A model generated the notes under the pieces. The model saw only the letters and a program-made list of their open reading frames with translations. It was not told the origin of the DNA and did not search any database. From Stella humosa (GTDB lineage Bacteria; Pseudomonadota; Alphaproteobacteria; ATCC43930; Allostellaceae): a DNA stretch of 64,000 nt. Shown one piece after another: positions 28,485 through 44,587 of the stretch (positions within the stretch are counted from its first letter, which is position 1; every line of letters starts with the position of its first letter). Location: the NCBI RefSeq assembly GCF_006738645.1, contig NZ_AP019700.1, forward strand, positions 446,001 through 510,000, read 5' to 3'. A program made the translations under genes and the position numbers.

Positions 28485-28487
28485 CGC

Positions 28488-29882
28488 TCAGGCGACCTTG
28501 GCCAGGCCCTGGCCGGCCAGCCACTTCTCGGTCTCGCCCAGCGCCTTGTCGAAGCGGCGGAACATCTCGTCCAGCTCGTCCCCGGTGATGATGAGCGGCG
28601 GGCAGAAGCCGATGGAATCGCCCATCGCGCGCAGGATCAGGCCGCCTTCCTGCGCCCGCTGGGCGAGGTAGGCGCCGACGCCCAGCTTGGCGTCGAACGG
28701 CGCGTGCGTGGCCTTGTCCGCCACCAGCTCGATCGCGCCGATCAGGCCGGTGCCGCGGCACTCGCCCACCAGCGGCCGGTCGGCGAAGCTGCGGATCCAC
28801 TTCTGCATCTTCGGTGCGATGGCCTGGACGTGGCCGACGATGTCGCGCTCCTCGTAGATCTTCAGCGTCTCCAGGGCGACCGCGCTCGAAACGGGGTGGC
28901 CGGAATAGGTGAAGCCGTGGGCGAAGACGCCGATCTTCTCGCTCTGGCGGACCATCGCCTGGTAGATCGGCTCGGAGATCATGACGGCCGAGATCGGCAG
29001 GTAGGCCGACGACAGCGCCTTGGCGCAGACCAGGATGTCCGGCTTGATGCCGAAGGTCTGGCAGCCCCACATGTTGCCGGTGCGCCCGAAGCCGCAGATC
29101 ACCTCGTCGGCGATCATCAGGATGTCGTACTTCTTCAGGATCGCCTGGACCTTCTCGAAGTAGCCGGCCGGCGGCAGGATGACGCCGCCCGCACCCATGA
29201 TCGGCTCGGCGATGAAGGCCGCCACCGTCTCCGGCCCCTCGGCCAGGATGCGCTTCTCCAGGTTGTCGGCGAGGCGCGTGGCGAATGCCTCCTCGCTCTC
29301 GCCCGGCTCGCCGAAGCGATAATGGTGCGGGCAGTCGACATGCATGATGTTGGCGATCGGCAGGTCGAAGTCGCGATGGTTGTTCGGCAGCCCGGTCAGG
29401 CTGGCCGAGGCGACGGTGACGCCGTGATAGCCCTTGGTGCGGGCCAGAATCTTCTTCTTGGCCGGCCGCTCCAGCGCGTTGTTGTAGTACCAGACGAGCT
29501 TCACGACCGAGTCATTGGCCTCGGAGCCGGAATTGGCGAAGAACACCTTCGACATCGGCACCGGCGCGGTCGACAGCAGCTTCTCGGCCAGGTCGACGCC
29601 GATCTCCGTCGTCTTGCCGCCGAACGTATGATAGTAGGGCAGGCGCCGCAGGGCCGCGATCGCGGCCTCTACCAGGCGCTCCTCGCTGAAGCCGAGGGAG
29701 GCGCACCACAGCCCGGCCATGCCCTCGATATACTCCTTGCCGGCCTCGTCCTGGATGTAGATGCCGCGGCCCCCGTTGACCACCAGCGGGCCATCGGTCT
29801 CGTGCTTCTTCAGGTTGGTGTAGGAGTGCAGGTAGGTCGCGATATCGCGGCTGGCGATCGAGTTGCCGGGCGGGCGCTGCAT
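28488..29882 (-). CDS. Class-III pyridoxal-phosphate aminotransferase (omega-transaminase type)
   Basis: 464 aa. It transfers amino groups from amines or omega-amino acids to a keto acid such as pyruvate. Typical marks are FFANSGSEANDSVVKLVWYY, RTKGYHGVTVASASLTG, IADEVICGFGRTG and the PLP-lysine region ILVCAKALSSAYLPISAV. The C-terminal ILRAMGDSIGFCPPLIIT binds the substrate carboxylate or phosphate. The ATG at 29882 has AAGGA seven bases upstream. The gene is divergent from the binding-protein array, which raises the possibility that it handles an imported amine; that link is inferred from position only. Confidence 0.9.
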   Translation of the reverse strand: MQRPPGNSIASRDIATYLHSYTNLKKHETDGPLVVNGGRGIYIQDEAGKEYIEGMAGLWCASLGFSEERLVEAAIAALRRLPYYHTFGGKTTEIGVDLAEKLLSTAPVPMSKVFFANSGSEANDSVVKLVWYYNNALERPAKKKILARTKGYHGVTVASASLTGLPNNHRDFDLPIANIMHVDCPHHYRFGEPGESEEAFATRLADNLEKRILAEGPETVAAFIAEPIMGAGGVILPPAGYFEKVQAILKKYDILMIADEVICGFGRTGNMWGCQTFGIKPDILVCAKALSSAYLPISAVMISEPIYQAMVRQSEKIGVFAHGFTYSGHPVSSAVALETLKIYEERDIVGHVQAIAPKMQKWIRSFADRPLVGECRGTGLIGAIELVADKATHAPFDAKLGVGAYLAQRAQEGGLILRAMGDSIGFCPPLIITGDELDEMFRRFDKALGETEKWLAGQGLAKVA

Positions 29883-29998
29883 GGATGATCCTTTCGGGGG
29901 GGAGCCGGGGCGGCGTGGCGCCAATATCCGTCCCGCCACCGGCCGAAGTCAAACGCAAGACCCCGTGGCGCGATCGCGGCGGGCGGAAATTCATCCAT

Positions 29999-30027: not shown

Positions 30028-30080
30028 AGTTTTGCTCCCCCTTGTCGGGGGGCACGGGATCACGGGACGGGAATTCTCCA

Positions 30081-31661
30081 ATGAAGATCAGGATCGCGCT
30101 CGCCGCCGCCTTGGCGCTGGCCGTGGCGGCGCCGCCGGTGGCGGCGAAGACGTTCAAGTATTCGACTACCGGCGATGTCATCGGCATGGACCCCCACATC
30201 AACAACGAGGGGCCGACCAATGCGATGAAGGACCATATCTACGAGGGGCTGGTCACCCGCCACTGGGACCTGGCGGTGCGGCCGGCGCTGGCGACCGAGT
30301 GGACCCAGGTCAACCCGACGACGACGCGCTTCAAGCTGCGCTCGGGCGTCACCTTCCATGACGGTTCGCCCTTCACGGCCGACGACGTCGTCTTCTCGTT
30401 CGACCGCATCCGCGGCGAACAGTCGGACATGAAGACCTACGTCACCGGCGTCAAGGAAGCGCGCAAGGTCGACGACCTGACGGTCGAACTGGTGACCGAG
30501 GCGCCGGACCCGGTGCTGATCCAGAACCTGACGCTCTTCCACATCATGTCGAAGAGCTGGGCGCAGAAGCACAACACGCTGCTGCCGCTGCGCGGCGCCA
30601 ATGCCGAGAGCTTCGCCAACCGCAACGCCAACGGCACCGGCCCCTTCAAGCTGGCCGAGCGCGTGCCGGACACCCGCACGGTGCTGGTGCCCAACGAGAA
30701 GTGGTGGGGCACGCCCGAGCATAACCTGACCCGCGTCGAGTTCCGCCCGATCGGCAACGCCGCCACCCGCGTGGCCGCCCTGCTGACCGGCGAGATCGAC
30801 ATGATGTTCCCGGTGCCGCTGCAGGACATCCCGCGGCTGGAGCGCACCGCCGGCGTGAAGGTCCTCCAGGGGCCGGAACTGCGCACGATCTTCCTCGGCT
30901 TTGACCAGTTCCGCGACGAGCTGCTGGACATGGCGGGCTCGGGCAAGAACCCGTTCAAGGACGTCCGCGTGCGTCGCGCCTTCTACCAGGCGATCGACAT
31001 CAACGCGATTCATCGCGTCGTCATGCGCGGCGCCTCGACGCCGACCGCGCTGATGATCGCGCCCGGCATCGCCGGCTTCTCCAAGGAGCTGAACGATCGC
31101 TATCCGTTCGATCCGGACGGGGCCAAGAAGCTGCTGGCGGACGCCGGCTATCCGTCGGGCTTCACCGTCACGCTCGATTGCCCGAACGACCGCTACGTCA
31201 ATGACGAGGCGATCTGCCAGGCCGTCGTGCCGATGCTGAGCCGCATCGGCGTGCAGGTGCGCCTGAACGCCCAGACCAAGGGGCTGCATTTCGACAAGAT
31301 CGGCCTGAAGGAAGGCCGCCGCACCAGCTTCTACATGCTCGGCTGGACCCCCGGGACGTACGACGCCCACAACATGCTCTACAACATCATCACGCTGAAT
31401 GCCGGCCCGGGCTCGGGTGCCAATAATAGCGGCCGCTACACCAATCCCAAGGTGGAGGAGCTGACCAAGGCGATCGGCCAGGAGCTCGACAAGGAAAAGC
31501 GGACGGCGATGATCGCCGAGGCGATGAAGATCCACAAGGAGGACTTCGGCCACATCCCGCTGCACCAGCAGGCCCTGGCGTGGGGCGTGCGCGAGACCGT
31601 CGCGGCCATCCCGCAGGCGGCCAATGACGCGGTTATGCTCAAGTACGTTCGCATGAAGTAA
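30081..31661 (+). CDS. ABC transporter substrate-binding protein, family 5 (array copy 1)
   Basis: 526 aa. A Sec signal peptide (MKIRIALAAALALAVAAPPVAA) precedes the mature start KTFKYSTTGDV; there is no lipobox, so it is a soluble periplasmic protein. The peptide/nickel-type (DppA/OppA) fold is shown by GMDPHINNEGPTNAMKDHIYEGL, GVTFHDGSPFTADDVVFSF and VRRAFYQAIDINAIHRVVM. Copy 1 differs most from the others in residues around 150-185 (LTLFHIMSKSWAQKHNTLL...NAESFANRNANG). The start at 30081 begins the signal; the frame is open 39 nt further upstream. It ends VRMK, like its paralogs. The ligand could be a peptide, opine or other small molecule. Confidence 0.92.
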   Translation: MKIRIALAAALALAVAAPPVAAKTFKYSTTGDVIGMDPHINNEGPTNAMKDHIYEGLVTRHWDLAVRPALATEWTQVNPTTTRFKLRSGVTFHDGSPFTADDVVFSFDRIRGEQSDMKTYVTGVKEARKVDDLTVELVTEAPDPVLIQNLTLFHIMSKSWAQKHNTLLPLRGANAESFANRNANGTGPFKLAERVPDTRTVLVPNEKWWGTPEHNLTRVEFRPIGNAATRVAALLTGEIDMMFPVPLQDIPRLERTAGVKVLQGPELRTIFLGFDQFRDELLDMAGSGKNPFKDVRVRRAFYQAIDINAIHRVVMRGASTPTALMIAPGIAGFSKELNDRYPFDPDGAKKLLADAGYPSGFTVTLDCPNDRYVNDEAICQAVVPMLSRIGVQVRLNAQTKGLHFDKIGLKEGRRTSFYMLGWTPGTYDAHNMLYNIITLNAGPGSGANNSGRYTNPKVEELTKAIGQELDKEKRTAMIAEAMKIHKEDFGHIPLHQQALAWGVRETVAAIPQAANDAVMLKYVRMK

Positions 31662-31726
31662 GCGCAGGACGCGAGAAACCCCTTCCCAAGCCACCGGCGC
31701 GTGGCAATGATCGGGGGATCGACCCG

Positions 31727-31756
31727 GACCGACGGTGCCGCAAGGCACCGCCGGTC
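31727..31756 (+). terminator. GCAA-tetraloop hairpin between array copies 1 and 2 (no U-tract)
   Basis: A 13-bp stem with one mismatch closes a GCAA tetraloop (GGTGCC GCAA GGCACC at its top). It is not followed by a T run, so it may be a transcript-stabilising or attenuating structure rather than a true terminator. Confidence 0.5.
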
Positions 31757-31785
31757 GGGGGCGTTCAACAGGGAAGGGGAAAATA

Positions 31786-33378
31786 ATGTCGATCAGACGA
31801 CTGCTCCTGACGACGACGGCGGCCCTCGTGCTGGCCGCGTCCGCCACCGCAGACGCCAAGGTCTTCCGCTACTCGACTTCTGGGGACATCAACGGCCTGG
31901 ACCCGCACCTCAACAACGAGGGTCCGACCAACGCGATGAAGAACAACCTCTACGAGGCCCTGATCTATCGCGACTATGAACTGAAACTGCAGCCGTCCCT
32001 GGCAACCGAATGGAGCCAGACCGGCCCGACCGTATGGCGCTTCAAGCTGCGCCAGGGCGTGAAGTTCCATGACGGTACGCCGTTCACGGCCGACGACGTC
32101 GTCTTTTCCGTCAAGCGCAACAACCACGAACAGTCGGGCATGCGCACCTACAGCGCATCCATCGTCGACGCCAAGAAGATCGACGACCATACGGTCGATC
32201 TGATCACCAAGGCGCCCGACCCGATCCTTGACCAGAACCTGCCGGCCGTCTTCATCATGTCGAAGGCCTGGGCCGAGAAGCACAACACGGCCACGCCGGT
32301 GCAGGGCATCGTCGGCAACGAAACCTTCGCCAACGTCAACGCCAACGGCACCGGGCCCTTCCGGATGCTGGACCGCGTGCCCGACACGCGCACCGTCATC
32401 GTCCCCAACCCGGACTGGTGGGGCAAGGTCGAGCACAACCTGACCCGCGTGGAGTTCCGGCCGATCACCAATGCGGCGACCCGCGTGGCAGCCCTGCTGT
32501 CGGGCGAGATCGACATGATGTTCCCCGTACCCCTTCAGGACGTGCCGCGCCTGAAGCGGTCGGCCGGGGTGAAGGTGCTGGAAGGGCCGGAACTCAGGAC
32601 CATCTTCCTCGGCTTCGACCAGTGGCGCGACGAGCTGAAGGACATGCCGGGGACGGGCAAGAACCCGTTCAAGGACGTCCGCGTGCGCCGTGCGTTCTAT
32701 CAGGCCATCGACATCCAGGCGATCCACCGCGTCGTCATGCGCGGCGCCTCGACGCCGACCGGGCTGATGATCGCGCCCGGCATCAACGGCTTCTCCAAGG
32801 AGTTGAACGACCGCTATCCGTTCGACCCCGATGGCGCCAAGAAGCTGCTGGCGGATGCCGGGTATCCCTCGGGCTTCCCCGTCACGCTCGACTGCCCGAA
32901 CGACCGCTACGTCAATGACGAGGCGATCTGCCAGGCCGTCGTGCCGATGCTGGCCCGTGTCGGCATCAACATCAAGTTGAACTCGCAGACCAAGTCGAAG
33001 CACTTCGACAAGATCGGCACCCGGTCGGGCAACGATACCAGCTTCTACATGCTGGGCTGGACCCCCGGGACGTACGACGCCCACAACATGCTCTACAACA
33101 TCCTGATGACCCGGAACCAGGCGACGGGGACGGGCTCCAACAACAGCGGCCGCTACTCCAACACGAAGCTCGACGAGCTGACCAACCAGATCGGCTCGGA
33201 GAGCGACCGCGAGAAGCGCAACCGCATGATCTACGAGGCCATGAAGATCCATAAGGAGGACTTCGGCCACATCCCGCTGCATCAGCAGGCGCTGGCCTGG
33301 GGCATCCGCGACAACGTCGCGTTCCTGCCGCAGCCGCCCAATGATTCGGTGGTGATCCGCGCCGTCCGGATGAAGTAG
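31786..33378 (+). CDS. ABC transporter substrate-binding protein, family 5 (array copy 2)
   Basis: 530 aa. The signal peptide MSIRRLLLTTTAALVLAASA is followed by mature KVFRYSTSGDINGLDPHLNN. It is closely related to copies 3 and 6 through the whole length, including SVKRNNHEQSGMRTYSASIVD, LPAVFIMSKAWAEKHNT and APGINGFSKELNDRYPFD. It keeps the cysteine pair around DCPNDRYVNDEAICQ. The ATG follows an AGGGGA ribosome site. A 48-nt stretch (33055-33102) is identical to copy 1, and a strong terminator follows the gene. Confidence 0.92.
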   Translation: MSIRRLLLTTTAALVLAASATADAKVFRYSTSGDINGLDPHLNNEGPTNAMKNNLYEALIYRDYELKLQPSLATEWSQTGPTVWRFKLRQGVKFHDGTPFTADDVVFSVKRNNHEQSGMRTYSASIVDAKKIDDHTVDLITKAPDPILDQNLPAVFIMSKAWAEKHNTATPVQGIVGNETFANVNANGTGPFRMLDRVPDTRTVIVPNPDWWGKVEHNLTRVEFRPITNAATRVAALLSGEIDMMFPVPLQDVPRLKRSAGVKVLEGPELRTIFLGFDQWRDELKDMPGTGKNPFKDVRVRRAFYQAIDIQAIHRVVMRGASTPTGLMIAPGINGFSKELNDRYPFDPDGAKKLLADAGYPSGFPVTLDCPNDRYVNDEAICQAVVPMLARVGINIKLNSQTKSKHFDKIGTRSGNDTSFYMLGWTPGTYDAHNMLYNILMTRNQATGTGSNNSGRYSNTKLDELTNQIGSESDREKRNRMIYEAMKIHKEDFGHIPLHQQALAWGIRDNVAFLPQPPNDSVVIRAVRMK

Positions 33379-33418
33379 GGCCGGGCCGCCCTCGCGGGCG
33401 GTGGCACGGGGGCGCGTC

Positions 33419-33460
33419 GGCGGCGGCGGATCGAGCGATCGATCCGTCGCTGCCTTTTTT
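33419..33460 (+). terminator. Intrinsic terminator after array copy 2
   Basis: A 16-bp stem (two G-U pairs) with a GCGA tetraloop at 33435-33438 is directly followed by six thymines (33455-33460). It is the longest terminator stem I see in the window. Confidence 0.88.
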
Positions 33461-33564
33461 ATGGGCTTTCGTCCTTTTGCGGTTCGGCATCAGGGCCGGA
33501 ATGGGCTAGGAATAGAAGGGTCCGAGGCGGCCCGCGTCCGAATGCCGGCCGCAATAAGGGAGAA

Positions 33565-35157
33565 ATGATGCGATCTCGATTGCTGATGGCGGCTGCCGCC
33601 ATCGCGCTGCTGATGGCTGCCCCAGCCGATGCCAAGACCTTCCGCTTCTCGTCGTCCGGTGACGTCAACGGGCTCGACCCGCACGTCAACAACGAGACGC
33701 CGACGAATGCGATGAAGAACAACCTCTACGAGGCCCTGATCTATCGCCTGCCGGACCTGAAGCTGGTCCCGTCGCTGGCGACCGAGTGGAAGCAGACCAG
33801 CCCCACGGTGTGGCGCTTCAAGCTGCGCCAGGGCGTGAAGTTCCATGACGGGTCGCCCTTCACGGCCGACGACGTTGCGTTTTCGATCAAGCGCAACAAC
33901 CACGAACAGTCGGGCATGGGCACCTACAGTGCCTCCGTGGTCGACGTGAAGAAGATCGACGACTTCACGGTCGAGCTGGTCACCAACGTGCCGGACCCGA
34001 TCCTCGACCAGAACCTGCCGGCCGTCTTCATCATGTCGAAGACCTGGGCCGAGAAGAACAACACCACGACCCCGGTACGCGGCATCGTCGGCAACGAGAG
34101 CTATGCCAACACCCATGCCAACGGCACCGGCCCGTTCAAGGTGCTGGAGCGCGTGCCCGATACCCGCACGGTGCTGGTCCCCAACAAGGAGTGGTGGGGC
34201 AAGGTCGAGCACAACCTTACCCGTGTCGAACTGCGGCCGATCGCCAATGCGGCCACCCGCGTGGCAGCGCTGCTGTCGGGCGAGATCGACATGATGTACC
34301 CCGTCCCGCTCCAGGACGTGCCGCGCCTGAAGCGCACGGCCGGCATCAAGGTGCTGGAAGGGCCGGAGCTGCGCACGATCTTCTTCGGCATGGACCAGTG
34401 GCGGCCGGAATCGCTCGACATGCCGGGTTCGGGCAAGAACCCGTTCAAGGACGTGCGGGTGCGCCGCGCCGTCTACCAGGCGATCGACATCAACGCCATC
34501 CAGCGGGTCGTCATGCGCGGCGCCTCGACGCCAACCGGCCTGATGATCGCGCCTGGCATCAACGGCTTCTCCAAGGAGCTGAACGAGCGCTATCCGCTCG
34601 ATCCGGAAGGCGCCAAGAAGCTGCTGGCCGAGGCCGGATATCCGGAAGGCTTCCCCGTCACGCTCGATTGCCCCAACGACCGCTACGTCAATGACGAGGC
34701 GATCTGCCAGGCCGTCGTGCCGATGCTGGCCCGCATCGGCGTGCAGGTGAAGCTCAACTCGCAGACCAAGTCCAAGCACTTCGACAAGATCGGCCAGCGC
34801 TCGGGCAATGCCAGCAGCTTCTACATGCTGGGTTGGACGCCGGGCAGCTTCGATGCCCACAATATGCTGTTCAACATCCTGGTGACGATGAACAGCGGCC
34901 TGCCGGGTGCCGGCGCCAACAACAGCGGCCGCTATTCCAACGCGCGGATCGACGAGCTGACCAAGCTGATCGGCGGCGAGACCGACCAGGAAAAGCGCAA
35001 CCAGATGATCTACGAGGCGATGAAGATCCATAAGGAGGAGTTCGGCCACATCCCGCTGCACCAGCAGGCACTGGCCTGGGGCCTGCGGGATTCGGTGGTG
35101 TCGATGCCCCAGTCGCCCAGCGATTCCGCCCAGGTGCGCTTCGTGAAGATGAAGTGA
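33565..35157 (+). CDS. ABC transporter substrate-binding protein, family 5 (array copy 3)
   Basis: 530 aa. A Sec signal (MRSRLLMAAAAIALLMAAPADA) precedes KTFRFSSSGDVNGLDPHVNN. It is full length with all family blocks, and close to copy 2 in the N-terminal half (SIKRNNHEQSGMGTYSASVVD) and to copy 6 in the centre (NKEWWGKVEHNLTRVELRPIANAA). The pocket-side segment reads GWTPGSFDAHNMLFNILVTMNSGLPGAGANNSGRYSN. Tandem ATG codons start the gene after GGGAGAA. Strong terminators both before and after suggest its own transcript. Confidence 0.92.
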   Translation: MMRSRLLMAAAAIALLMAAPADAKTFRFSSSGDVNGLDPHVNNETPTNAMKNNLYEALIYRLPDLKLVPSLATEWKQTSPTVWRFKLRQGVKFHDGSPFTADDVAFSIKRNNHEQSGMGTYSASVVDVKKIDDFTVELVTNVPDPILDQNLPAVFIMSKTWAEKNNTTTPVRGIVGNESYANTHANGTGPFKVLERVPDTRTVLVPNKEWWGKVEHNLTRVELRPIANAATRVAALLSGEIDMMYPVPLQDVPRLKRTAGIKVLEGPELRTIFFGMDQWRPESLDMPGSGKNPFKDVRVRRAVYQAIDINAIQRVVMRGASTPTGLMIAPGINGFSKELNERYPLDPEGAKKLLAEAGYPEGFPVTLDCPNDRYVNDEAICQAVVPMLARIGVQVKLNSQTKSKHFDKIGQRSGNASSFYMLGWTPGSFDAHNMLFNILVTMNSGLPGAGANNSGRYSNARIDELTKLIGGETDQEKRNQMIYEAMKIHKEEFGHIPLHQQALAWGLRDSVVSMPQSPSDSAQVRFVKMK

Positions 35158-35158
35158 G

Positions 35159-35176
35159 CGATCACTGATGTGATCG
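35159..35176 (+). repeat. Small palindrome after array copy 3
   Basis: CGATCAC TGAT GTGATCG forms a 7-bp stem with a 4-nt loop directly after the stop codon, 24 nt before the terminator. It may be an operator or an RNA end structure; nothing decides between these. Confidence 0.4.
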
Positions 35177-35200
35177 TCCCCTCCCCGGGGGATGGCAACG

Positions 35201-35230
35201 AGGCGGGCCCGAGCGATCGGCCCGCCTTTT
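35201..35230 (+). terminator. Intrinsic terminator after array copy 3
   Basis: A perfect 9-bp stem AGGCGGGCC / GGCCCGCCT with a 9-nt loop, followed by a short T run. Confidence 0.8.
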
Positions 35231-35260
35231 GCTTGAACGGCCGTTGAATCGATTCCCGTC

Positions 35261-35288
35261 TTGGGGATGTCGGCGCGACTGCTATGCT
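35261..35288 (+). promoter_or_regulatory. Candidate promoter for array copy 4
   Basis: TTGGGG and TATGCT are spaced by 16 nt, 60 nt before the ATG at 35349 and after the copy-3 terminator. This supports separate transcription; it was found by eye. Confidence 0.4.
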
Positions 35289-35348
35289 CGCTGCCGTCAG
35301 AGAGGGCCGGCGGGTTCCCTGTCGGCTGCAACCGGGGAGATACGACGG

Positions 35349-36935
35349 ATGCGACGACGATTTTTGCTGGCGGCGGCCGCCACGGCCCTGGTTCTGGCCG
35401 GTGCCGCCGACGCCAAGACCTTCCGCTTCTCGACATCGGGTGACGTGAACGGGCTCGATCCGCACCTGAACAACGAAACCCCGACCAACGCGATGAAGCA
35501 CAACCTCTATGAGGGGTTGGTCTATCGCAACCACAAGTTGGAGGTCGAGCCGGCGCTGGCGACGGAATGGAGCCAGACCGGCCCCACCACCTGGCGCTTC
35601 AAGCTGCGCCAGGGCGTCACCTTCCATGACGGCACGCCGTTCAAGGCCGACGACGTCATCTTCTCGATCGCGCGCGCCGGCGCCACCACCAGCGCCATGC
35701 GCATCTTCACCCAGACCATCAAGGAAGTGCGCAAGGTCGACGACCACACCATCGACATCGAGACCAAGGTTCCCGACCCGATCCTGCTGTCGAGCCTGGG
35801 CTACCTCTGGATCATGTCGAAGGACTGGTCCGAGAAGAACGGCACCGCCACCCCGGTCCAGGGGATCGTCGGCAACGAGAGTTACGCCAACGTCCACGCC
35901 AACGGCACCGGCCCCTTCAAGGTCATCGACCGGGTGCCGGACACGCGCACCGTCCTGGTGCCCTTCGACAAATGGTGGGGCAAGCCCGAGCATAACCTGA
36001 CCCGGGTCGAGTTCCGGCCGATCGCCAACGCCGCCACCCGGGTGGCCGCCCTGCTCTCGGGCGAGCTCGACATGATGTACCCGGTGCCGCTCCAGGACGT
36101 GCCGCGGCTGAAGCGCACCGGCGGCGTGAAGGTGCTCGAAGGGCCGGAACTGCGCACGATCTATATCGGCATGGACCAGTTCCGCGACGAGCTGCTGGAC
36201 ATGCCGGGCAGCGGCAAGAACCCATTCAAGGACCGCCGCGTTCGCCAGGCCTTCTACCAGGCGATCGACGTGCAGGCGATCCACAAGGTCGTCATGCGCG
36301 GCGCCTCGACGCCGACCGGCCTGCTGATCGCCCCCGGCATCAACGGCTTCTCCAAGGAGCTGAACGAGCGCTTCCCGTTCGATCCCGAGGGCGCCAAGAA
36401 GCTGCTGGCCGACGCTGGCTATCCCTCCGGCTTCACCGTCACGATGGACTGCTCGAACGACCGCTACGTCAACGACGAGCAGATCTGCCAGGCGATCGCC
36501 CCCATGCTGGCCCGCATCGGCGTGACGCTGAAGCTGAACATCCAGACCAAGTCGAAATACTTCGACAAGATCGGCGTGCGCGCCGGCTTCAACACCAGCT
36601 TCTTCCTGCATGGCTGGACGCCCGGCACCTATGACGCCCACAACGGGCTGATGGCGCTGGTCCACACCCGCGACCAGGCGGCCGGCACCGGCACCACCAA
36701 CAACGGCCGCTACTCGAACGCCGCGGTCGACGCGCTGATCGCCCAGATCGGCATCGAGACGGACAAGGAGAAGCGCACCCGGCTCATCTACGACGCGATG
36801 AAGCTGGCCAAGGACGACTACAGCCACATCCCGGTCCACCAGCAGGCGCTGGCCTGGGCGGTGCGCGACAGCGTCGCCTTCATCCCGCAGCCGCCGGACG
36901 ACAGCCCGATGCCGCGCTACATCCGCATGAAGTAG
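35349..36935 (+). CDS. ABC transporter substrate-binding protein, family 5 (array copy 4, divergent)
   Basis: 528 aa. The signal MRRRFLLAAAATALVLAGAADA precedes KTFRFSTSGDVNGLDPHLNN. It is the most divergent copy: SIARAGATTSAMRIFTQTIKE replaces the KRNNHEQ region, LLSSLGYLWIMSKDW replaces the LPAVFIMSK block, and the C-terminal lobe reads SFFLHGWTPGTYDAHNGLMAL instead of SFYMLGW...NMLYNI. The cysteine pair is kept (DCSNDRYVNDEQICQ). These changes fall in segments expected to line the ligand cleft, so a different ligand is plausible. The ATG at 35349 starts the signal; the frame is open 120 nt upstream. Confidence 0.92.
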   Translation: MRRRFLLAAAATALVLAGAADAKTFRFSTSGDVNGLDPHLNNETPTNAMKHNLYEGLVYRNHKLEVEPALATEWSQTGPTTWRFKLRQGVTFHDGTPFKADDVIFSIARAGATTSAMRIFTQTIKEVRKVDDHTIDIETKVPDPILLSSLGYLWIMSKDWSEKNGTATPVQGIVGNESYANVHANGTGPFKVIDRVPDTRTVLVPFDKWWGKPEHNLTRVEFRPIANAATRVAALLSGELDMMYPVPLQDVPRLKRTGGVKVLEGPELRTIYIGMDQFRDELLDMPGSGKNPFKDRRVRQAFYQAIDVQAIHKVVMRGASTPTGLLIAPGINGFSKELNERFPFDPEGAKKLLADAGYPSGFTVTMDCSNDRYVNDEQICQAIAPMLARIGVTLKLNIQTKSKYFDKIGVRAGFNTSFFLHGWTPGTYDAHNGLMALVHTRDQAAGTGTTNNGRYSNAAVDALIAQIGIETDKEKRTRLIYDAMKLAKDDYSHIPVHQQALAWAVRDSVAFIPQPPDDSPMPRYIRMK

Positions 36936-36957
36936 CCGGCCCGGGATCCGAACGAGC

Positions 36958-36988
36958 GGGGCCGGGGCTCTTTCGACGCCCCGGCCCC
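36958..36988 (+). terminator. GC-rich hairpin after array copy 4
   Basis: A perfect 11-bp stem GGGGCCGGGGC / GCCCCGGCCCC with a 9-nt loop and no T run. It is either a weak terminator or a 3'-end stabilising structure. Confidence 0.5.
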
Positions 36989-37053
36989 TCATCGAGCCGC
37001 CCGAAGACCTGGTCCTAACCGGGCATGGGCATTCTCCAGCACAGGGGCATGGC

Positions 37054-38637
37054 ATGAGCAGACTTATGGCGGCGACGGCAGTCGCCCTCACCTTGGCGGC
37101 CTACGGCATGGCCGAGGCCAAAACCTTCCGCTTCTCCTCTTCCGGCGACATCAACGGGCTCGATCCGCACCTCAACAACGAGGCGCCGACGAACGCGATG
37201 AAGAACAACGTCTACGAGACGCTGATCTTTCGCGACTATGCCCTGAAGCTGCTGCCGGCGCTGGCGACCGAGTGGAAGCAGACGGACCCCACGACCTGGC
37301 GCTTCAAGCTGCGCCAGGGCGTGAAGTTCCACGACGGCACGCCCTTCACGGCCGACGACGTGATCTTCTCGGTCAAGCGCAACCAGCATGAGCAAGGGGC
37401 GATGCGCACCGCTTCCTTGACCATCAAGGAAGTGAAGAAGATCGACGAGACCACGATCGACATCCTGACCGAGGGACCGAACCCGATCCTCGACCAGGAC
37501 CTGACGTCGGTCTTCATCATGTCGAAGCCGTGGGCCGAGAAGAACAAGACGGTGACGCCGGTGCGCGGCATCGTCGGCAACGAAAGCTATGCCAACACCC
37601 ATACCAACGGCACCGGGCCGTTCAAGATCCTGGACCGGGTGCCCGACACCCGCACGGTCCTGGTGCCCAACCCGGACTGGTGGAACAAGAAGCCCGAGCA
37701 CAACCTGACCCGCGTCGAGTTCCGCCCGATCGCCAATGCGGCGACCCGCGTGGCCGCATTGCTGTCGGCCGAGATCGACATGATGTACCCGGTCCCGCTC
37801 CAGGACATTCCGCGGATCGAGCGTACGGCCGGCATCAAGGTGATGCAGGGGCCCGAACTGCGCGTCGTCTTCCTCGGCATGGACCAGTGGCGGCCCGAAC
37901 TGCTGGACATGCCGGGCTCGGGCAAGAACCCGTTCAAGGACAAGCGCGTCCGCCAGGCGATGTACCAGGCGATCGATGCCGACGCGATGAAGCGCGTCGT
38001 CATGCGCGGCGTCTCCATTCCGACCGGCCTGATGGTCGGGCAGGGCGCCACCGGCTATTCCAAGGAACTTGACACCCGCTATCCCTTCGATCCCGATGGC
38101 GCCAAGAAGCTGCTGGCGGACGCAGGCTATCCGTCGGGCTTCACGGTCACGCTGGATTGCCCGAACGACCGCTACGTCAATGACGAGGCGACCTGCCAGG
38201 CCGTCGTGCCGATGCTGAGCCGCATCGGCGTGACGGTGAAGCTGAACTCGCAGACCAAGTCGAAGCACTTCGACAAGATCGGCCAGCGCTCGGGCAACAA
38301 TACCAGCTTCTACATGCTGGGCTGGGGCACCTACGACGCCTATGACATGCTCTACAACATCGTCATGACGGTCGATGCCACGCCGGGTGCGGGCTCCAAC
38401 AACAGCGGCCGCTACTCCAACCCCAAGGTCGACGAACTGACCAAGCTGATCCGCGTCGAAGTCGACCAGGAGAAGCGCAACAAGATGATCTACGACGCCA
38501 TGAAGATTCATAAGGAGGACTTCGGCCACATCCCGTTGCACCAGCCGCCGCTTGCCTGGGCCGCCCGGGATTCGGTCGCGTCGCTGCCGCAGGCGCCGAA
38601 CGACTATGTCATGCTGCGCTACGTCAAGATGAAGTAA
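37054..38637 (+). CDS. ABC transporter substrate-binding protein, family 5 (array copy 5)
   Basis: 527 aa. A short signal (MSRLMAATAVALTLAAYGMAEA) precedes KTFRFSSSGDINGLDPHLNN. This copy departs from the others at three cleft-side places: VGQGATGYSKELDTRY replaces APGI(N/A/V)GFSKEL; GWGTYDAYDM lacks two residues of GWTPGTYDAHNM; and HQPPLAWAARD replaces HQQALAWG(I/L)RD. The rest, including DCPNDRYVNDEATCQ, matches the family. It is followed by a very clear terminator. The ATG at 37054 has a weak ribosome site (AGGGGC). Confidence 0.92.
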   Translation: MSRLMAATAVALTLAAYGMAEAKTFRFSSSGDINGLDPHLNNEAPTNAMKNNVYETLIFRDYALKLLPALATEWKQTDPTTWRFKLRQGVKFHDGTPFTADDVIFSVKRNQHEQGAMRTASLTIKEVKKIDETTIDILTEGPNPILDQDLTSVFIMSKPWAEKNKTVTPVRGIVGNESYANTHTNGTGPFKILDRVPDTRTVLVPNPDWWNKKPEHNLTRVEFRPIANAATRVAALLSAEIDMMYPVPLQDIPRIERTAGIKVMQGPELRVVFLGMDQWRPELLDMPGSGKNPFKDKRVRQAMYQAIDADAMKRVVMRGVSIPTGLMVGQGATGYSKELDTRYPFDPDGAKKLLADAGYPSGFTVTLDCPNDRYVNDEATCQAVVPMLSRIGVTVKLNSQTKSKHFDKIGQRSGNNTSFYMLGWGTYDAYDMLYNIVMTVDATPGAGSNNSGRYSNPKVDELTKLIRVEVDQEKRNKMIYDAMKIHKEDFGHIPLHQPPLAWAARDSVASLPQAPNDYVMLRYVKMK

Positions 38638-38657
38638 CGACGGCCGATCCACGTCGT

Positions 38658-38684
38658 GGCCCGGCCGAAAGGCCGGGCCTTTTT
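38658..38684 (+). terminator. Intrinsic terminator after array copy 5
   Basis: A perfect 9-bp stem GGCCCGGCC / GGCCGGGCC closes a GAAA tetraloop and is followed by five thymines, a textbook intrinsic terminator. Confidence 0.9.
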
Positions 38685-38788
38685 CGTGCTTCGATAGATT
38701 CCGCTTGTCGATGGCGGCCGGGCGGGCAGTATGGCCCCAAGCCCTCGCAGGGTAGACGGGGGTTCCCAACACCATCCAGGGGATTTCG

Positions 38789-40372
38789 ATGAAACGGTGG
38801 ATTCTATCCACGGCGGTCGTGCTGGCGCTCGCCGCCCATGGCGCGGCCGACGCCAAGACCTTCCGGTTCTCCATGCCGGGCGACATCAACGGGCTCGATC
38901 CGCATCTCAACAACGAGAGCCCGACCAATGCGATGAAGAACAACCTCTACGAGACGTTGATCTTCCGCGACTACGAGCTGAAGCTGCATCCGTCGCTGGC
39001 GACCGAATGGCAGCAGACGGCACCCACCGTGTGGCGCTTCAAGCTGCGCCCCGGGGTGAAGTTCCACGACGGCACGCCCTTCACCGCCGATGACGTCGTC
39101 TTCTCGGTCGCGCGCAACAACCATGCGCAGTCGGACCTGGCGACCTACAGCTCGACCATCGCCGAGGTGAAGAAGATCGACGACCTGACGGTCGACATCG
39201 TCACCAACGGTCCCGACCCGGTGCTGCTGCAGAACCTGCCGGCCGTCTTCATCATGTCGAAGACCTGGTCGGAGAAGAACAACACCGCCGCCCCCGTCCG
39301 CGGCATCGTCGGCAACGAGAGCTATGCCAACCGCCACGTCAACGGCACCGGCCCCTTCAAGCTGGCCGAGCGCGTGCCGGACACGCGCACCGTGCTGGAG
39401 CCGAACAAGGAGTGGTGGGGCAAGGTCGAGCACAACCTGACCCGCGTCGAGTTGCGACCGATCGCCAATGCGGCCACCCGGGTAGCCGCCCTGCTGTCGG
39501 GCGAGATCGACATGATGCACCCCGTGCCCTTGCAGGACGTGCCGCGCCTGAAGCGCACGGCCGGCGTGAAGGTGCTGGAAGGGCCCGAGCTGCGGACGAT
39601 CTTCTTCGGCATGGACCAGCATCGCGACGAGCTGATGGACATGCCGGGCACGGGCAAGAATCCGTTCAAGGACAAGCGCGTTCGGCAGGCCTTCTACCAG
39701 GCGATCGACATCAACGCGATCCAGCGGGTCGTCATGCGCGGCGCCTCGACGCCGACCGGCATCATGATCGCGCCGGGCATCGTCGGCTTCTCCAAGGAAA
39801 TGAACGAGCGCTATCCGTTCGATCCCGAGGGCGCCAAGAAGCTGCTGACCGAGGCGGGATATCCCAACGGCTTCCCCGTCACCCTCGACTGCCCGAACGA
39901 CCGCTACGTCAATGACGAGGCGATCTGCCAGGCCGTCGTGCCGATGCTGACCCGCATCGGCGTGCAGCTGAAGCTGAACTCGCAGACCAAGTCCAAGCAC
40001 TTCGACAAGATCGGCGAGCGGCAGAACTGGAACACCAGCTTCTATATGCTGGGCTGGACGCCGGGCAGCTACGACGCCCACAACATGCTCTACAACATCA
40101 TCTCGATGGGGGCGGGGCCGGGCTCGGGCTCGAACAACAGCGGGCGCTACAACAACCCGCGGGTGAACGACCTGACCGCCCGCATCGGCGTCGAGACCGA
40201 CCAGGAGAAGCGGTCGGCGATGATCCAGGAGGCCATGAAGATCCACAAGGAGGACTTCGGCCACATCCCGCTGCACCAGCAGGCCCTGGCATGGGCCATC
40301 CGCGACACCGTCGTGACCCTGCCGCAGGCGCCCAACGATGCGCTGATGGTACGATTCGTGAAGATGAAGTAG
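38789..40372 (+). CDS. ABC transporter substrate-binding protein, family 5 (array copy 6)
   Basis: 527 aa. The signal MKRWILSTAVVLALAAHGAADA precedes KTFRFSMPGDINGLDPHLNN. It is full length, with the general family blocks, APGIVGFSKEMNERYPFD and GWTPGSYDAHNMLYNIISMG. It shares a 60-nt identical run (39890-39949) with copies 1 and 2. It is the last binding protein before the permeases, 223 nt upstream of the first permease. The ATG follows a CAGGGGATTTCG ribosome site. Confidence 0.92.
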   Translation: MKRWILSTAVVLALAAHGAADAKTFRFSMPGDINGLDPHLNNESPTNAMKNNLYETLIFRDYELKLHPSLATEWQQTAPTVWRFKLRPGVKFHDGTPFTADDVVFSVARNNHAQSDLATYSSTIAEVKKIDDLTVDIVTNGPDPVLLQNLPAVFIMSKTWSEKNNTAAPVRGIVGNESYANRHVNGTGPFKLAERVPDTRTVLEPNKEWWGKVEHNLTRVELRPIANAATRVAALLSGEIDMMHPVPLQDVPRLKRTAGVKVLEGPELRTIFFGMDQHRDELMDMPGTGKNPFKDKRVRQAFYQAIDINAIQRVVMRGASTPTGIMIAPGIVGFSKEMNERYPFDPEGAKKLLTEAGYPNGFPVTLDCPNDRYVNDEAICQAVVPMLTRIGVQLKLNSQTKSKHFDKIGERQNWNTSFYMLGWTPGSYDAHNMLYNIISMGAGPGSGSNNSGRYNNPRVNDLTARIGVETDQEKRSAMIQEAMKIHKEDFGHIPLHQQALAWAIRDTVVTLPQAPNDALMVRFVKMK

Positions 40373-40385
40373 CGCCGCTTGGTCG

Positions 40386-40414
40386 CCCCGTCCTGGCTGG
40401 GGGCCGGGACGGGG
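40386..40414 (+). terminator. Hairpin after array copy 6
   Basis: An 8-bp stem CCCCGTCC / GGACGGGG with a 13-nt loop and no T run. It could lower but not stop read-through into the permease genes. Confidence 0.4.
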
Positions 40415-40444
40415 TGGTCCGGGAATTGCGGCACGGGAAAGGCG

Positions 40445-40474
40445 TTGACGGCGGTTTTGCGACCGGCCTAGTTA
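40445..40474 (+). promoter_or_regulatory. Candidate promoter for the permease-ATPase genes
   Basis: TTGACG, near the ideal -35 box, lies 18 nt before TAGTTA. This would give the four transporter core genes their own transcript, independent of copy 6. The -10 match is modest. Confidence 0.35.
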
Positions 40475-40536
40475 CAAGGCTTCCGGCATAGCCCGAAAAT
40501 TGGGCAGTCGGCAGGGTTTGGGGGAGAGTGAGGGGA

Positions 40537-40599
40537 ATGAGCCAGGAATCCGCTAGGCAGGACCTGCCTGCTGCCAGCGCGGGAGGGCGGAAACGATGA
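40537..40599 (+). CDS. Possible 20-aa leader ORF upstream of the first permease
   Basis: An ATG with a strong GAGGGGA ribosome site opens a 20-codon frame (MSQESARQDLPAASAGGRKR) whose TGA overlaps the permease ATG as ATGA. If translated, it would couple ribosomes into the permease. There is no known homologous leader, and it may be chance. Confidence 0.3.
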   Translation: MSQESARQDLPAASAGGRKR

Positions 40600-41582
40600 T
40601 CGCGTTCATCATCCGCCGGCTGCTGCAATCCGTGATCGTCATGCTGGTGGTGTCGTTCGTCTCCTTCAGCATGTTCAATTTCCTGGGCGACCCGATCAAC
40701 AACATGGTCGGCCAGGATGCGACGGAGGCAGAGCGCGAGAACCTTCGCCGCGTGCTGGGGCTCGACAAGCCCTTCTACCTGCAGTTCCTGGTCTATCTGG
40801 GCAACGCCATCCAGGGGAACTTCGGCACCTCCTACCGGCTCGGCATGCCGGTGGTGAACGCGCTGGCCGAGCGCCTCCCGGCGACGCTGGAGCTGGTGTT
40901 CTGCGCGGCGGGCCTGGCCCTCCTGGTGGGCGTGCCGCTCGGCGTCTATACGGGCCTGCACCGCGACCGCTGGCTCAGCAAGGTGTTCCTCACCCTGTCG
41001 CTGATCGGCATCTCGCTGCCGACCTTCCTCATCGGCATCCTGCTCATCCTGTTCTTCGCCGTGTATCTCGGCTGGCTGCCGTCCTTCGGGCGCGGCGACG
41101 TGGTCCAGCTCGGCTTCTGGTCGACCGGCTTCTTCACGCTCTCGGGCATCAAGGCGCTGGTCCTGCCGTCGATCACGCTGGCGCTGTTCCAGCTAACGCT
41201 CGTCATGCGCCTGGTGCGGGCCGAGATGCTGGAGGTGCTGCGCACCGACTACATCAAGTTCGCGCGCGCCCGCGGCCTGTCCAACCGGGCGGTGCATTTC
41301 GGCCATGCGCTGGCGAACACGATGGTGCCGGTCATCACCATCACCGGCCTCCAGATCGGCTCGCTGATCGCGTTCGCGATCGTGACCGAGACGGTGTTCC
41401 AGTGGCCGGGCATGGGCCTGCTCTTCCTGCAGGCGGTGCAGTTCGTCGACATCCCGGTGATGTCGTCCTACCTGGTGCTGATCGCCTTCTTCTTCGTCGC
41501 GATCAACCTGATCGTCGACCTGCTCTACTACTTCGTCGACCCGCGACTGCGCGCCGATCGCGCCGTCGCCGGCGGCCACTGA
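40596..41582 (+). CDS. ABC transporter permease, DppB/OppB type
   Basis: 328 aa with six predicted transmembrane helices; it starts MIAFIIRRLLQSVIVMLVVSFVSFSMFNFLGDP, the usual DppB N-terminus with the GDP loop. The cytoplasmic EAA-type coupling loop is FARARGLSNRAVHFGHALANTMVP. It forms half of the inner-membrane channel with the next gene. The six upstream binding proteins are its evident partners. The gene ends 17 nt before the second permease. Confidence 0.93.
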   Translation: MIAFIIRRLLQSVIVMLVVSFVSFSMFNFLGDPINNMVGQDATEAERENLRRVLGLDKPFYLQFLVYLGNAIQGNFGTSYRLGMPVVNALAERLPATLELVFCAAGLALLVGVPLGVYTGLHRDRWLSKVFLTLSLIGISLPTFLIGILLILFFAVYLGWLPSFGRGDVVQLGFWSTGFFTLSGIKALVLPSITLALFQLTLVMRLVRAEMLEVLRTDYIKFARARGLSNRAVHFGHALANTMVPVITITGLQIGSLIAFAIVTETVFQWPGMGLLFLQAVQFVDIPVMSSYLVLIAFFFVAINLIVDLLYYFVDPRLRADRAVAGGH

Positions 41583-41599
41583 CCGCGGGGGAGGCCGCC

Positions 41600-42532
41600 A
41601 TGACGGATGTGACTGCACCCCCCGGCGCGCTGCGACGGATCGTCGACAGCGACGTCTTCTACAGCTTCCGCCGCTCCAAGGTGACGGTGGTGGCCGCGAT
41701 CGTGACCGCGGTCATCGTCATCGGCTCGATGCTGGGCCCGTGGATCGCCCCGCACGATACCTACGACGTGCGCAGCCTGAACCTGCTCGACGCCTTCACC
41801 CCGCCGGTCTGGTCCGAGGGCGGCAACCCCAGCTACCTGCTGGGCACCGACGACCAGGGGCGCGACGTCTTCTCGACCATCCTGCTGGGCGCGCGCGTGT
41901 CGCTCCTGGTCGGCTTCTGCGCCACGCTCTTCGCCATGACGATGGGCGTCCTGCTGGGGCTGATCAGCGGCTATGTCGGCGGCACCACCGATGCGGTCAT
42001 CATGCGCATCGCCGACATCAAGCTGTCCTTCCCGGCCATCCTGATCGCGCTCCTGATCGACGGCGTGGCGCGCGGCATCATCCCGCGCGACATGCATGAC
42101 GACCTGGCGCTCTACGTCGTCATCTTCGCCATCGGCATCTCCAACTGGGTGGCCTATGCCCGCACCGTGCGCGGCTCGACCCTGGTGGAGAAGAACAAGG
42201 AGTACGTCCAGGCCGCCCGGATCATCGGCCTGCATCCCTTCACCATCATGATCCGCCATGTGCTGCCGAACGTGCTGGGGCCGGTGCTGGTCATCGGCAC
42301 GCTGGGCCTGGCGGGCGCGATCCTGGCGGAGGCGACGCTGAGCTTCCTCGGCGTCGGCGTGCCGCCCACGCGCCCCTCGCTCGGCACGCTGATCCGCGTC
42401 GGCAACAACTTCCTGTTTTCCGGCGAATGGTGGATGACGATTTTCCCCGGCGTCATGCTCGTGGTCCTGGTCCTGGCGGTGAACCTGCTGGGCGACTGGC
42501 TCCGCGACGCGCTCAACCCGAAGCTCCGCTGA
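41600..42532 (+). CDS. ABC transporter permease, DppC/OppC type
   Basis: 310 aa. A cytoplasmic N-terminus is followed by a first helix (VTVVAAIVTAVIVIGSMLGPWIAP), a periplasmic loop with LLGTDDQGRDVFSTILLGARVS (the DppC signature), and five more helices. The EAA loop is YVQAARIIGLHPFTIMIRHVLPN. The ATG at 41600 follows GGGGGAGG; an upstream open frame overlaps the first permease and was rejected. Its stop shares one base with the next start (TGATG). Confidence 0.93.
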   Translation: MTDVTAPPGALRRIVDSDVFYSFRRSKVTVVAAIVTAVIVIGSMLGPWIAPHDTYDVRSLNLLDAFTPPVWSEGGNPSYLLGTDDQGRDVFSTILLGARVSLLVGFCATLFAMTMGVLLGLISGYVGGTTDAVIMRIADIKLSFPAILIALLIDGVARGIIPRDMHDDLALYVVIFAIGISNWVAYARTVRGSTLVEKNKEYVQAARIIGLHPFTIMIRHVLPNVLGPVLVIGTLGLAGAILAEATLSFLGVGVPPTRPSLGTLIRVGNNFLFSGEWWMTIFPGVMLVVLVLAVNLLGDWLRDALNPKLR

Positions 42533-43518
42533 TGCAGAACGCTCCTCTTCTTCGGGTCGAGAACCTCAAGGTCGAGTTTCCCACCCGCCGCGGCCGCCTC
42601 GTGGCCGTCGACGACGTATCCTTCGACATCGCGCCCGGCGAGGTGCTGGGCGTGGTGGGTGAATCGGGTGCCGGCAAGTCGATGACCGGGTCTGCCATCA
42701 TCGGCCTGCTGGAGCCGCCCGGCCGCATCGCCGGCGGATCGATCTCGCTCGACGGGCGCCGGATCGACAATCTCCCCTACGAGGAGATGCGCAAGATTCG
42801 CGGCAAGCACATCGGCGCCATCTTCCAGGACCCGCTGACCAGCCTCAACCCGCTCTACTCGGTCGGCAAGCAACTGGTCGAGACGATCCTGACCCATTCC
42901 GACATGTCGCTGACGGCGGCGCGCGAGCGGGCGCTGGCCCTGCTGCGCGAGGTCGGCATTCCCGCTCCCGAGCGCCGGATCGAGCAGTATCCGCACCAGT
43001 TCTCGGGTGGCATGCGCCAGCGCGTCGTCATCGCGCTGGCACTTTGCGCCAATCCGCGACTGATCGTGGCCGACGAGCCGACGACGGCCCTCGACGTGTC
43101 GATCCAGGCGCAGATCATCGCGCTCCTGAAGCGGCTATGCCGCGAGCACGGCACGGCGGTGATGCTGGTCACCCACGACATGGGCGTGATCGCCGAGACG
43201 GCCGACCGGGTGGCGGTCATGTATGCCGGCCGCGTGGCCGAGATCGGCCCCGTGCGCGACGTCATCAAGAACCCCAAGCACCCCTACACGGTCGGCCTCA
43301 TGGGCTCGATCCCGCGCATGGGTCGCGACGAGGCGCGCCTGACCCAGATCGACGGGTCGATGCCGCGCCTGACCGAGATCCCGACCGGCTGCGCCTTCAA
43401 CCCGCGCTGCCCGCTGGTGTTCGACCGCTGCCGGCGGGAACGGCCCGACCTGATCGACGTCGGTCCGTTCCACCAGGTCTCCTGCTGGAAATATGCCGAG
43501 GGGGTGGGACATGCTTAA
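42532..43518 (+). CDS. ABC transporter ATPase, DppD/OppD type
   Basis: 328 aa. The nucleotide-binding domain is complete: Walker A GESGAGKSM, ABC signature FSGGMRQRV, Walker B LIVADEPTTALD and H-loop VTHDMG. The C-terminal oligopeptide-transporter domain has the cysteine motif GCAFNPRCPLVFDRC, which in relatives can hold an Fe-S cluster. It couples ATP hydrolysis to import with DppF. Coding overlaps both neighbours (1 nt and 8 nt). Confidence 0.94.
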   Translation: MQNAPLLRVENLKVEFPTRRGRLVAVDDVSFDIAPGEVLGVVGESGAGKSMTGSAIIGLLEPPGRIAGGSISLDGRRIDNLPYEEMRKIRGKHIGAIFQDPLTSLNPLYSVGKQLVETILTHSDMSLTAARERALALLREVGIPAPERRIEQYPHQFSGGMRQRVVIALALCANPRLIVADEPTTALDVSIQAQIIALLKRLCREHGTAVMLVTHDMGVIAETADRVAVMYAGRVAEIGPVRDVIKNPKHPYTVGLMGSIPRMGRDEARLTQIDGSMPRLTEIPTGCAFNPRCPLVFDRCRRERPDLIDVGPFHQVSCWKYAEGVGHA

Positions 43519-44587
43519 GGCCGCACCAGCCCGGGCGCAGTTCCAGGGCATCGACAAGGACGCCCCGCCCTTCGTTCGCGTCGAGGGGCTGAGCCGCTAT
43601 TTCGACGTGTCGCCGCCGCTGCTCAACCGCATGCTGGAGGGCAAGTCCCGCCAGATCCTGAAGGCGGTCGACGGCATCGACTTTGCCATCGGCAAGGGCG
43701 AGACCTTCTCGCTGGTCGGCGAGTCCGGCTGCGGCAAGTCGACCGTGGCCCGGCTCGTGGTCGGGCTCTATCGCGCCACCGACGGCACGATCGAGTTCGA
43801 TGGCCATGATTTCGGCCGCATGACGACGCGCGCTGCCATGGCGCCGATCCGCTCGCGCATCCAGATGATCTTCCAGGATCCCTATGCCAGCCTCAATCCG
43901 CGCTGGCGCGTCCGCGAGATCATCGCCGAGCCGATCCGCGCCTATCGCCTGCTGTCGGGCGACAAGGCGATCAATGCGCGGGTCGACGAGCTGCTGCGCC
44001 AGGTCCGCCTGACGCCGGCGGACGGCACCAAGTTCCCGCACGAATTCTCGGGCGGACAACGCCAGCGCATCTCGATCGCGCGTGCGCTCGCGAGCAATCC
44101 CGAGTTCCTCGTCTGCGACGAGCCCACCTCGGCGCTCGACGTGTCGGTGCAGGCCCAGATCCTCAACCTGATGAAGGATCTCCAGCGCGAGCTGGGGCTG
44201 ACCTATCTCTTCATTTCGCACAATCTGGCGGTCGTCTATCACATCTCGGACCGGGTCGGTGTGATGTACCTGGGCCGCCTGGCCGAGGTAGCACCGGTCA
44301 AGACCTTGTTCCGCCAGCCGCGCCACCCCTACACGCGTATGCTGCTGGACACGATCCCGGACATGGACATGACCGGGCGCCAGCGCCACCCCGTCGCGGG
44401 CGAGGTGCCGAGCCCGATCAATCCGCCGTCCGGCTGTTCGTTCCACCCGCGCTGCCCGTTCGCCAACGATCGGTGCAAGGCGGAGCGGCCGAATCCGATC
44501 CGGGTCGGCGATGCCTTCATCGCCTGCCACGGCGTGGAAGAGGGGCGGGTGCCCGACGGTCCGATCGGAACGGCACAGGCCGCATAG
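43511..44587 (+). CDS. ABC transporter ATPase, DppF/OppF type
   Basis: 358 aa, from the ATG overlapping the dppD-type stop by 8 nt. It has Walker A GESGCGKST, signature FSGGQRQRI, Walker B LVCDEPTSALD, an H-loop with FISHNL, and the C-terminal GCSFHPRCPFANDRC motif. It pairs with the preceding ATPase as the engine for the importer. It could also serve the ATPase-less importer at 50.9-54.5 kb, which is an inference. Confidence 0.94.
   Translation: MLKAAPARAQFQGIDKDAPPFVRVEGLSRYFDVSPPLLNRMLEGKSRQILKAVDGIDFAIGKGETFSLVGESGCGKSTVARLVVGLYRATDGTIEFDGHDFGRMTTRAAMAPIRSRIQMIFQDPYASLNPRWRVREIIAEPIRAYRLLSGDKAINARVDELLRQVRLTPADGTKFPHEFSGGQRQRISIARALASNPEFLVCDEPTSALDVSVQAQILNLMKDLQRELGLTYLFISHNLAVVYHISDRVGVMYLGRLAEVAPVKTLFRQPRHPYTRMLLDTIPDMDMTGRQRHPVAGEVPSPINPPSGCSFHPRCPFANDRCKAERPNPIRVGDAFIACHGVEEGRVPDGPIGTAQAA

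Follow-up and report, generated by a model that had tools for sequence, protein, structure and literature searches.

The genome of Stella humosa, a star-shaped soil bacterium, carries six contiguous genes for family-5 substrate-binding proteins (SBPs), S1 to S6, all located upstream of one set of permease and ATPase genes (T1, T2, A1 and A2) within the 64,000-nucleotide window analyzed here (positions 446,001 to 510,000 of contig NZ_AP019700.1; coordinates below are those of the window unless noted otherwise). From sequence comparison, we consider it likely that this locus constitutes a single ATP-binding cassette (ABC) importer whose one translocator is served by six duplicated SBPs that take up different or overlapping ligands, are expressed from several transcription units, and are subject to gain and loss among species. 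The genus Stella is now renamed Allostella (PMC12488387). The genes of the array are as follows.

S1: 30081..31661, + strand, family-5 SBP of 526 amino acids; first-branching group of the Stella array clade, with orthologs in all four Stella genomes examined
S2: 31786..33378, + strand, family-5 SBP of 530 amino acids; orthologs in all four Stella genomes examined
S3: 33565..35157, + strand, family-5 SBP of 530 amino acids; among the four Stella genomes, ortholog only in S. vacuolata
S4: 35349..36935, + strand, family-5 SBP of 528 amino acids; two relatives in S. vacuolata and, in a metagenome-assembled genome (MAG), two fragments at contig ends
S5: 37054..38637, + strand, family-5 SBP of 527 amino acids; ligand-anchor loop two residues shorter, likewise in its three orthologs
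S6: 38789..40372, + strand, family-5 SBP of 527 amino acids; positional counterpart only in the MAG
T1: 40596..41582, + strand, DppB/OppB-type permease
T2: 41600..42532, + strand, DppC/OppC-type permease
A1: 42532..43518, + strand, DppD/OppD-type ATPase
A2: 43511..44587, + strand, DppF/OppF-type ATPase

A first-pass annotation of this DNA had described six full-length tandem family-5 genes that all keep signal peptides and a VRMK/VKMK/IRMK end, with no decayed copy, and this description is borne out. The six open reading frames (ORFs), at 30081–40372, are open and full length (526–530 amino acids) and all match PF00496 (family-5, or cluster C, SBPs) with 283–298 bits against a cut-off of 32.4. 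By inspection, their N-termini look like signal peptides, with a hydrophobic stretch followed by AxA-K, in which A21, A23 and K24 are invariant; the C-termini are, from S1 to S6, VRMK, VRMK, VKMK, IRMK, VKMK and VKMK. The six are paralogs under purifying selection, with pairwise identities of 66.1–79.8%, dN of 0.13–0.27 and dS of 0.42–0.55, and the PF00496 scores, the intact ORFs and the excess of dS over dN rule out chance or decay as an explanation of the six copies. An AlphaFold2 model of S3, the only one of the six to be modeled, has a mean pLDDT of 91.9 and the cluster C fold; the structures near it by fold are a Bacillus family-5 SBP (5u4o), the glutathione-binding GbpA (3m8u; Foldseek TM score, normalized by query, 0.84), E. 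coli DppA with Gly-Leu (1dpp; 0.81), and opine-binding proteins.

Exactly one permease pair and one ATPase pair follow the SBP genes, as previously noted, at 40596–44587. The four genes overlap or almost touch, and motifs that we take to be the ABC signature and Walker motifs are visible in the translations of A1 and A2. The arrangement is thus that of a multi-SBP ABC importer, in which a group of paralogous SBPs adjoins a single permease/ATPase set. The genome contains 35 other matches to T1 (E ≤ 1e-20), none of which exceeds 47% identity, so that no candidate was found for a dedicated permease elsewhere for each copy, the finding that the first-pass annotation had named as one that would speak against it. 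Because of this, and because the two nearest outgroup SBPs lie directly before an orthologous permease, the best inference is that the six SBPs share one importer; the earlier proposal to that effect gains support by elimination but remains an inference. Sharing is likely to be common in this genome, since 70 family-5 SBP matches stand against 36 T1 permease matches at E ≤ 1e-20, a ratio of about 2:1, and many of these SBPs probably have no permease of their own.

A tree of 44 SBP sequences, including 19 array members from four Stella genomes, places all 19 in one clade (support 96/92) to the exclusion of three Stella SBPs from other loci. The next branches outside this clade are SJ314 and two Asaia-labelled sequences, and the SBP genes of SJ314 and of an Asaia MAG sit directly before T1 orthologs (73% and 72% identity). 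Tree and synteny thus bear out the tandem duplication read earlier from the sequence alone, and suggest that the six SBPs arose from the translocator's own single cognate SBP. Within the clade there is strong support for the S1, S4 and S5 ortholog groups (100/100 each) and for S3 (100/99), and somewhat less for S2 together with the SBP in the last position of the MAG array (91/79); S6 stands alone. In the S5 group (91/74) and in S2 the three isolates cluster to the exclusion of the MAG, which is not so in S1.

Comparison of related genomes, which the first-pass annotation had recommended, reveals that the copy number varies from three to six within the genus. S. vacuolata (ATCC 43931) also has six, but a different set: beside the same aminotransferase that flanks S1 in S. 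humosa it carries S1, S2, S3, an extra S4-like copy, S4 and S5, and has no S6. Stella sp. ATCC 35155 has only three (S1, S2 and S5), and the fragmented MAG has at least five: one contig carries S1 and S2 and breaks off within an S4, and a second opens with the last part of an S4 and continues with S5, one further SBP and T1. That last SBP groups with the MAG's own S2 (96/89), yet the spacer preceding it aligns with the spacer before S6; because tree and spacer disagree, this gene could be either an S6 that gene conversion has changed or a copy in its own right. Orthologs of S1, S2 and S5 across the four genomes are 83–94% identical, compared to 66–80% among the six paralogs of the window, and dN/dS is 0.08–0.39 over 17 pairs (mostly orthologs, with three that involve the extra S4 copy or the last SBP of the MAG), the S4 group evolving fastest. 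The simplest reading is that the ancestral array had at least four or five members, with later losses in ATCC 35155 and, in S. vacuolata, the disappearance of S6 and the acquisition of an additional S4. Synteny and tree show that the repertoire varies among species through gene gain and loss. A possible gene-conversion tract lies in alignment columns 361–410, where S3 and S6 share 94% DNA identity, compared to 88.7% between S3 and its S. vacuolata ortholog. Wide gene conversion was rejected, as in pairwise comparisons of the six genes (15 pairs) only one 50-codon stretch (S3–S6) reached 93%.

A second array in the same genome, at genome positions 1318439–1336522 and thus outside the window (L057, L058), resembles the first in having multiple family-5 SBPs with one permease pair and a number that varies in the genus. 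Its eight family-5 SBPs are accompanied by one permease pair and by an ATPase that appears to be fused; genes for HlyD and an AcrB-type efflux pump interrupt the array, which is only 24–28% identical to the six-SBP array in aligned stretches. Of matches related to this second array, S. vacuolata has seven within a single 21-kb stretch, ATCC 35155 has four within 11 kb, and the MAG has five on two contigs; among the three complete genomes, ATCC 35155 has the smallest version of both arrays.

The putative ligand site departs from that of DppA. In E. coli DppA, R383 holds the carboxyl group of the dipeptide and D436 its amino group (PMC12136057), and a Gly-Asp-Asn motif at this amino anchor is reported to be shared by E. 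coli DppA and its five Pseudomonas counterparts (PMC12728205). By sequence alignment, R373 (S3 numbering) corresponds to R383 and is kept in all 36 rows, while the position of D436 is occupied by a glycine (G427 in S3), the loop reading GW(TP)GTYDAHN in place of GWTGDNGDPDN; the Gly-Asp-Asn motif is present at the anchor loop in none of the 36 aligned rows. Because the aspartate is missing and the carboxylate-binding arginine is kept, the ligands are probably carboxylates bound without the amino anchor of DppA, and amino-acid-like acids rather than classical dipeptides. The same loop is where the paralogs diverge. In an analysis of 18 rows (with S6 as a group of one), 60 of 507 mature columns are fixed within each paralog group and differ between groups, and the densest 20-column stretch of these, columns 420–439, coincides with the anchor loop; 10 of its 20 columns are of this kind, a density that 17 of 5000 shuffles attain. 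Among residues 421–440, 9 of the 15 variable columns are group-fixed, compared to 51 of 274 elsewhere, and all four members of the S5 group lack two anchor-loop residues. The copies probably differ, then, in the ligands that they accept. Each would accept its own range of small amino-acid-derived carboxylates, distinct from or overlapping with those of the others (modified amino acids, or opine- or peptide-like compounds), captured through the common arginine and the diverged anchor loop, and all six would deliver to the same permease.

The gene flanking the array on the left is:

Class III aminotransferase: 28488..29939, − strand, scoring above the NCBIfam PRK06105 cut-off, divergent from S1

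This neighbor is present in three Stella genomes, in Reyranella (L037) and in one further relative (G011, L062). A scan of 20 proteins encoded beside relatives of the array, several of which had no match, includes proteins like FAD-dependent oxidoreductases, threonine/serine dehydratases, cyclodeaminases, M20-type dipeptidases and aminotransferases. Together with the aminotransferase here, these neighbors suggest amino-acid-derived ligands, without settling on a single one. The earlier suggestion of a swappable set of specificity subunits fits the changes at the ligand-anchor loop, although overlapping function or dosage may also account for it.

The SBP genes had been described as following one another without interruption, which is true of the genes but not necessarily of their transcripts. 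The spacers between them are 118–191 bp long and fold into strong hairpins, two of which are listed as terminator-like; folding z-scores for the six spacers of the window range from −2.1 to −4.7. Among the array spacers of the four genomes, 13 of 20 have a stem reached by no more than 3 of 200 shuffles, in a test that ignores T-runs. The elements in these spacers and before T1 are:

33419..33454, + strand: terminator-like hairpin after S2, 16 pairs followed by TTTTTT; stem reached by none of 200 spacer shuffles
35200..35228, + strand: weaker terminator-like hairpin after S3, 10 pairs with a loop of 9 and four T in an 8-base tail; 26 of 200 shuffles reach the stem
38658..38679, + strand: terminator-like hairpin after S5, nine G-C pairs followed by TTTTT, alignable with the MAG; stem alone reached by 37 of 200 shuffles
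40445..40473, + strand: promoter-like block TTGACG-N17-CTAGTT upstream of the permease operon, kept in four Stella genomes
40537..40599, + strand: upstream ORF (uORF) of 20 codons, its stop overlapping the T1 start; length, position and start context kept in four genomes, peptide not conserved

The promoter-like block, which reads TTGACG-N17-CTAGT[TA] across the four genomes, lies within otherwise variable DNA, and the conserved GGGGAATG downstream of it begins the uORF; this looks like a separate promoter with translational coupling for the permease operon. Taken together, the hairpins, the promoter-like block and the uORF suggest several transcription units, such that the SBP units would be set apart by hairpins and the permease operon would have its own promoter, and the blend of receptors could be changed without changing the pump. 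Such a layout of separate units has a precedent, since tandem oppA genes of Borrelia are reported to have their own promoters, in addition to giving bi- and tricistronic transcripts (PMC5736914). A scan for terminator-like hairpins found 19, compared to 9.0 expected, most of them outside the spacers, and an Rfam scan of 28000–47500 found no known RNA element at E values up to 0.1. A hairpin in 31662–31785, shortly before S2, has a counterpart of different sequence at a similar place in S. vacuolata and ATCC 35155, and is possibly an element of the 5′ untranslated region of S2.

Outside the genus, 10 of 18 named loci (L035–L052) have a T1-type permease beside the SBP, and in 7 of those 10 there is a single SBP of the family. 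Among 61 genomes (S. humosa and 60 relatives), 24 have a match at E ≤ 1e-120, and outside Stella an adjacent pair is seen in only one (G006) among the candidates scored (at most 24 per genome). In a survey of 289 genomes of the class, which included S. humosa and ATCC 35155, at least 57 have a match at E ≤ 1e-140; at most five candidates per genome were scored, so that counts are lower bounds, and among these a pair less than 2.5 kb apart occurs outside Stella only in G271, where a third copy follows after 3.7 kb, while G219 and G314 have two copies each, 3.3 kb apart.

Several observations weigh against the interpretation of the array as one importer with divided receptors. In 8 of the 18 named outgroup loci the DNA retrieved around the SBP contains no adjacent permease of this type, some of these contigs being very short. 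Seven of the 20 spacers, including those between S1 and S2, S3 and S4, and S5 and S6 of the window, have stems reached by 16–164 of 200 shuffles, and a consensus promoter scan found three sites compared to 1.8 expected (the shuffle mean), which is no better than chance, with the block before T1 not among them. Counted in stretches of 11 columns, the anchor-loop peak loses significance (577 of 5000 shuffles), the loop is more variable overall (15 of 20 columns, compared to 289 of 507), and the group-fixed columns follow the tree and hence are not independent. The ligand class is drawn from the neighboring genes and one aligned residue; largely overlapping ligands would likewise be compatible with an arginine common to the whole set.

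One alternative is that the copies are redundant and merely raise the amount of binding protein relative to permease. Retention of the arginine and of much of the sequence by all copies (219 of 533 columns are invariant in 18 rows), a copy number that differs among species, and the recently homogenized appearance of S3 and S6 in columns 361–410 are all in keeping with it. At 66–80% identity, however, the six are far apart for dosage copies, and the differences fixed between them are concentrated in the ligand-anchor loop, where the S5 clade has a two-residue gap of its own; we therefore regard dosage as unlikely. It is also improbable that the locus is a classical dipeptide permease (Dpp) with a duplicated DppA, as in Pseudomonas aeruginosa, although the gene content is similar, the best solved relative of T1 is DppB (E 5.2e-59), and the S3 model has the DppA fold. 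The three SBPs scanned against the DppA equivalog NF043070 (S1, S3 and S4) score only 133.9–145.6 bits compared to a cut-off of 1005, the Gly-Asp-Asn motif of the E. coli protein and the five Pseudomonas DppA proteins (PMC12728205) is absent, and T1 has Q/D where the alignment places E41/R42, the scoop residues of DppB. The missed cut-off and the absent amino-anchor aspartate rule out filing the array as a Dpp system. A matching change in the permease scoop loop (E41/R42 to Q/D) was considered and dropped, as an aspartate is found there in three of four other aligned permeases of the genome.

Some copies could instead dock elsewhere, either with a different permease encoded in the genome or, in a sensory role, with the hybrid histidine kinase whose gene follows the operon (44680–47217), and both the excess of SBP over T1 matches and the retention of this kinase at 68% identity in ATCC 35155 are in keeping with this. 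We think it quite improbable, given that a single SBP gave rise to all six and that its closest outgroup relatives precede an orthologous permease, that no other T1 match exceeds 47% identity, and that the S. vacuolata kinase match is only 44% over the part covered (the fetched stretch ends within the gene). One translocator with six duplicated and diverging SBPs thus remains the likely explanation. Elsewhere in the window, a further family-5 SBP match with an adjoining T1-type permease match is located on the − strand at 51786–54183 (genome positions 497786–500183).

The principle that several paralogous SBPs serve one importer, with partly separate regulation, is already known, and the premise of the first-pass annotation that a peptide-type importer normally has one binding protein is not true of all known systems; the exceptional status that it implied for the array is weakened by published sets of five SBPs (PMC4206461, PMC12728205, PMC5736914). 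P. aeruginosa has DppA1–A5, of which four lie near one BCDF operon, interspersed with other genes, and the fifth lies elsewhere; specificity is partly divided, a single permease transcript is predicted, and SBP expression levels differ (PMC4206461, PMC12728205). The similarity to Stella is that several paralogous SBPs of this fold are present, most of them near one BCDF operon; Stella differs in having six contiguous SBPs, all upstream, without the DppA Gly-Asp-Asn motif. In Borrelia burgdorferi, OppA1–A5 include tandem duplicates that form one clade, as in Stella, with individual promoters reported for the tandem genes, differential expression and a proposed divergence of the ligand cavity; the differences are that only three SBPs are in tandem (two are on plasmids), that there are two permease pairs, and that the ligands are oligopeptides (PMC5736914). 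A literature search for SBP sets and for Stella or Allostella returned no title or abstract on this array, most subscription papers being outside the search. The array appears to be a real, well-preserved and evolving multi-SBP importer, whose six contiguous SBPs exceed the published examples compared.

We speculate further, and only tentatively, that Stella pursues a receptor-cassette strategy. Two independent arrays (six and eight SBPs in S. humosa, with varying relatives in the genus) would be under birth and death, with SBP genes acting as separate small units that feed a permease operon having its own promoter and a coupled uORF, and with specificity changing through one anchor loop while the carboxylate-binding arginine and putative docking faces stay fixed.

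How several receptors split ligands and use one pump is known in few systems, and the interest of the Stella array lies in its genus-level series and its altered anchor loop. Four related genomes carry three, at least five, and six members, with orthologs that allow direct comparison, and the second array acts as an internal replicate. How importer receptors are born, lost and specialized can thus be tested in free-living environmental bacteria.

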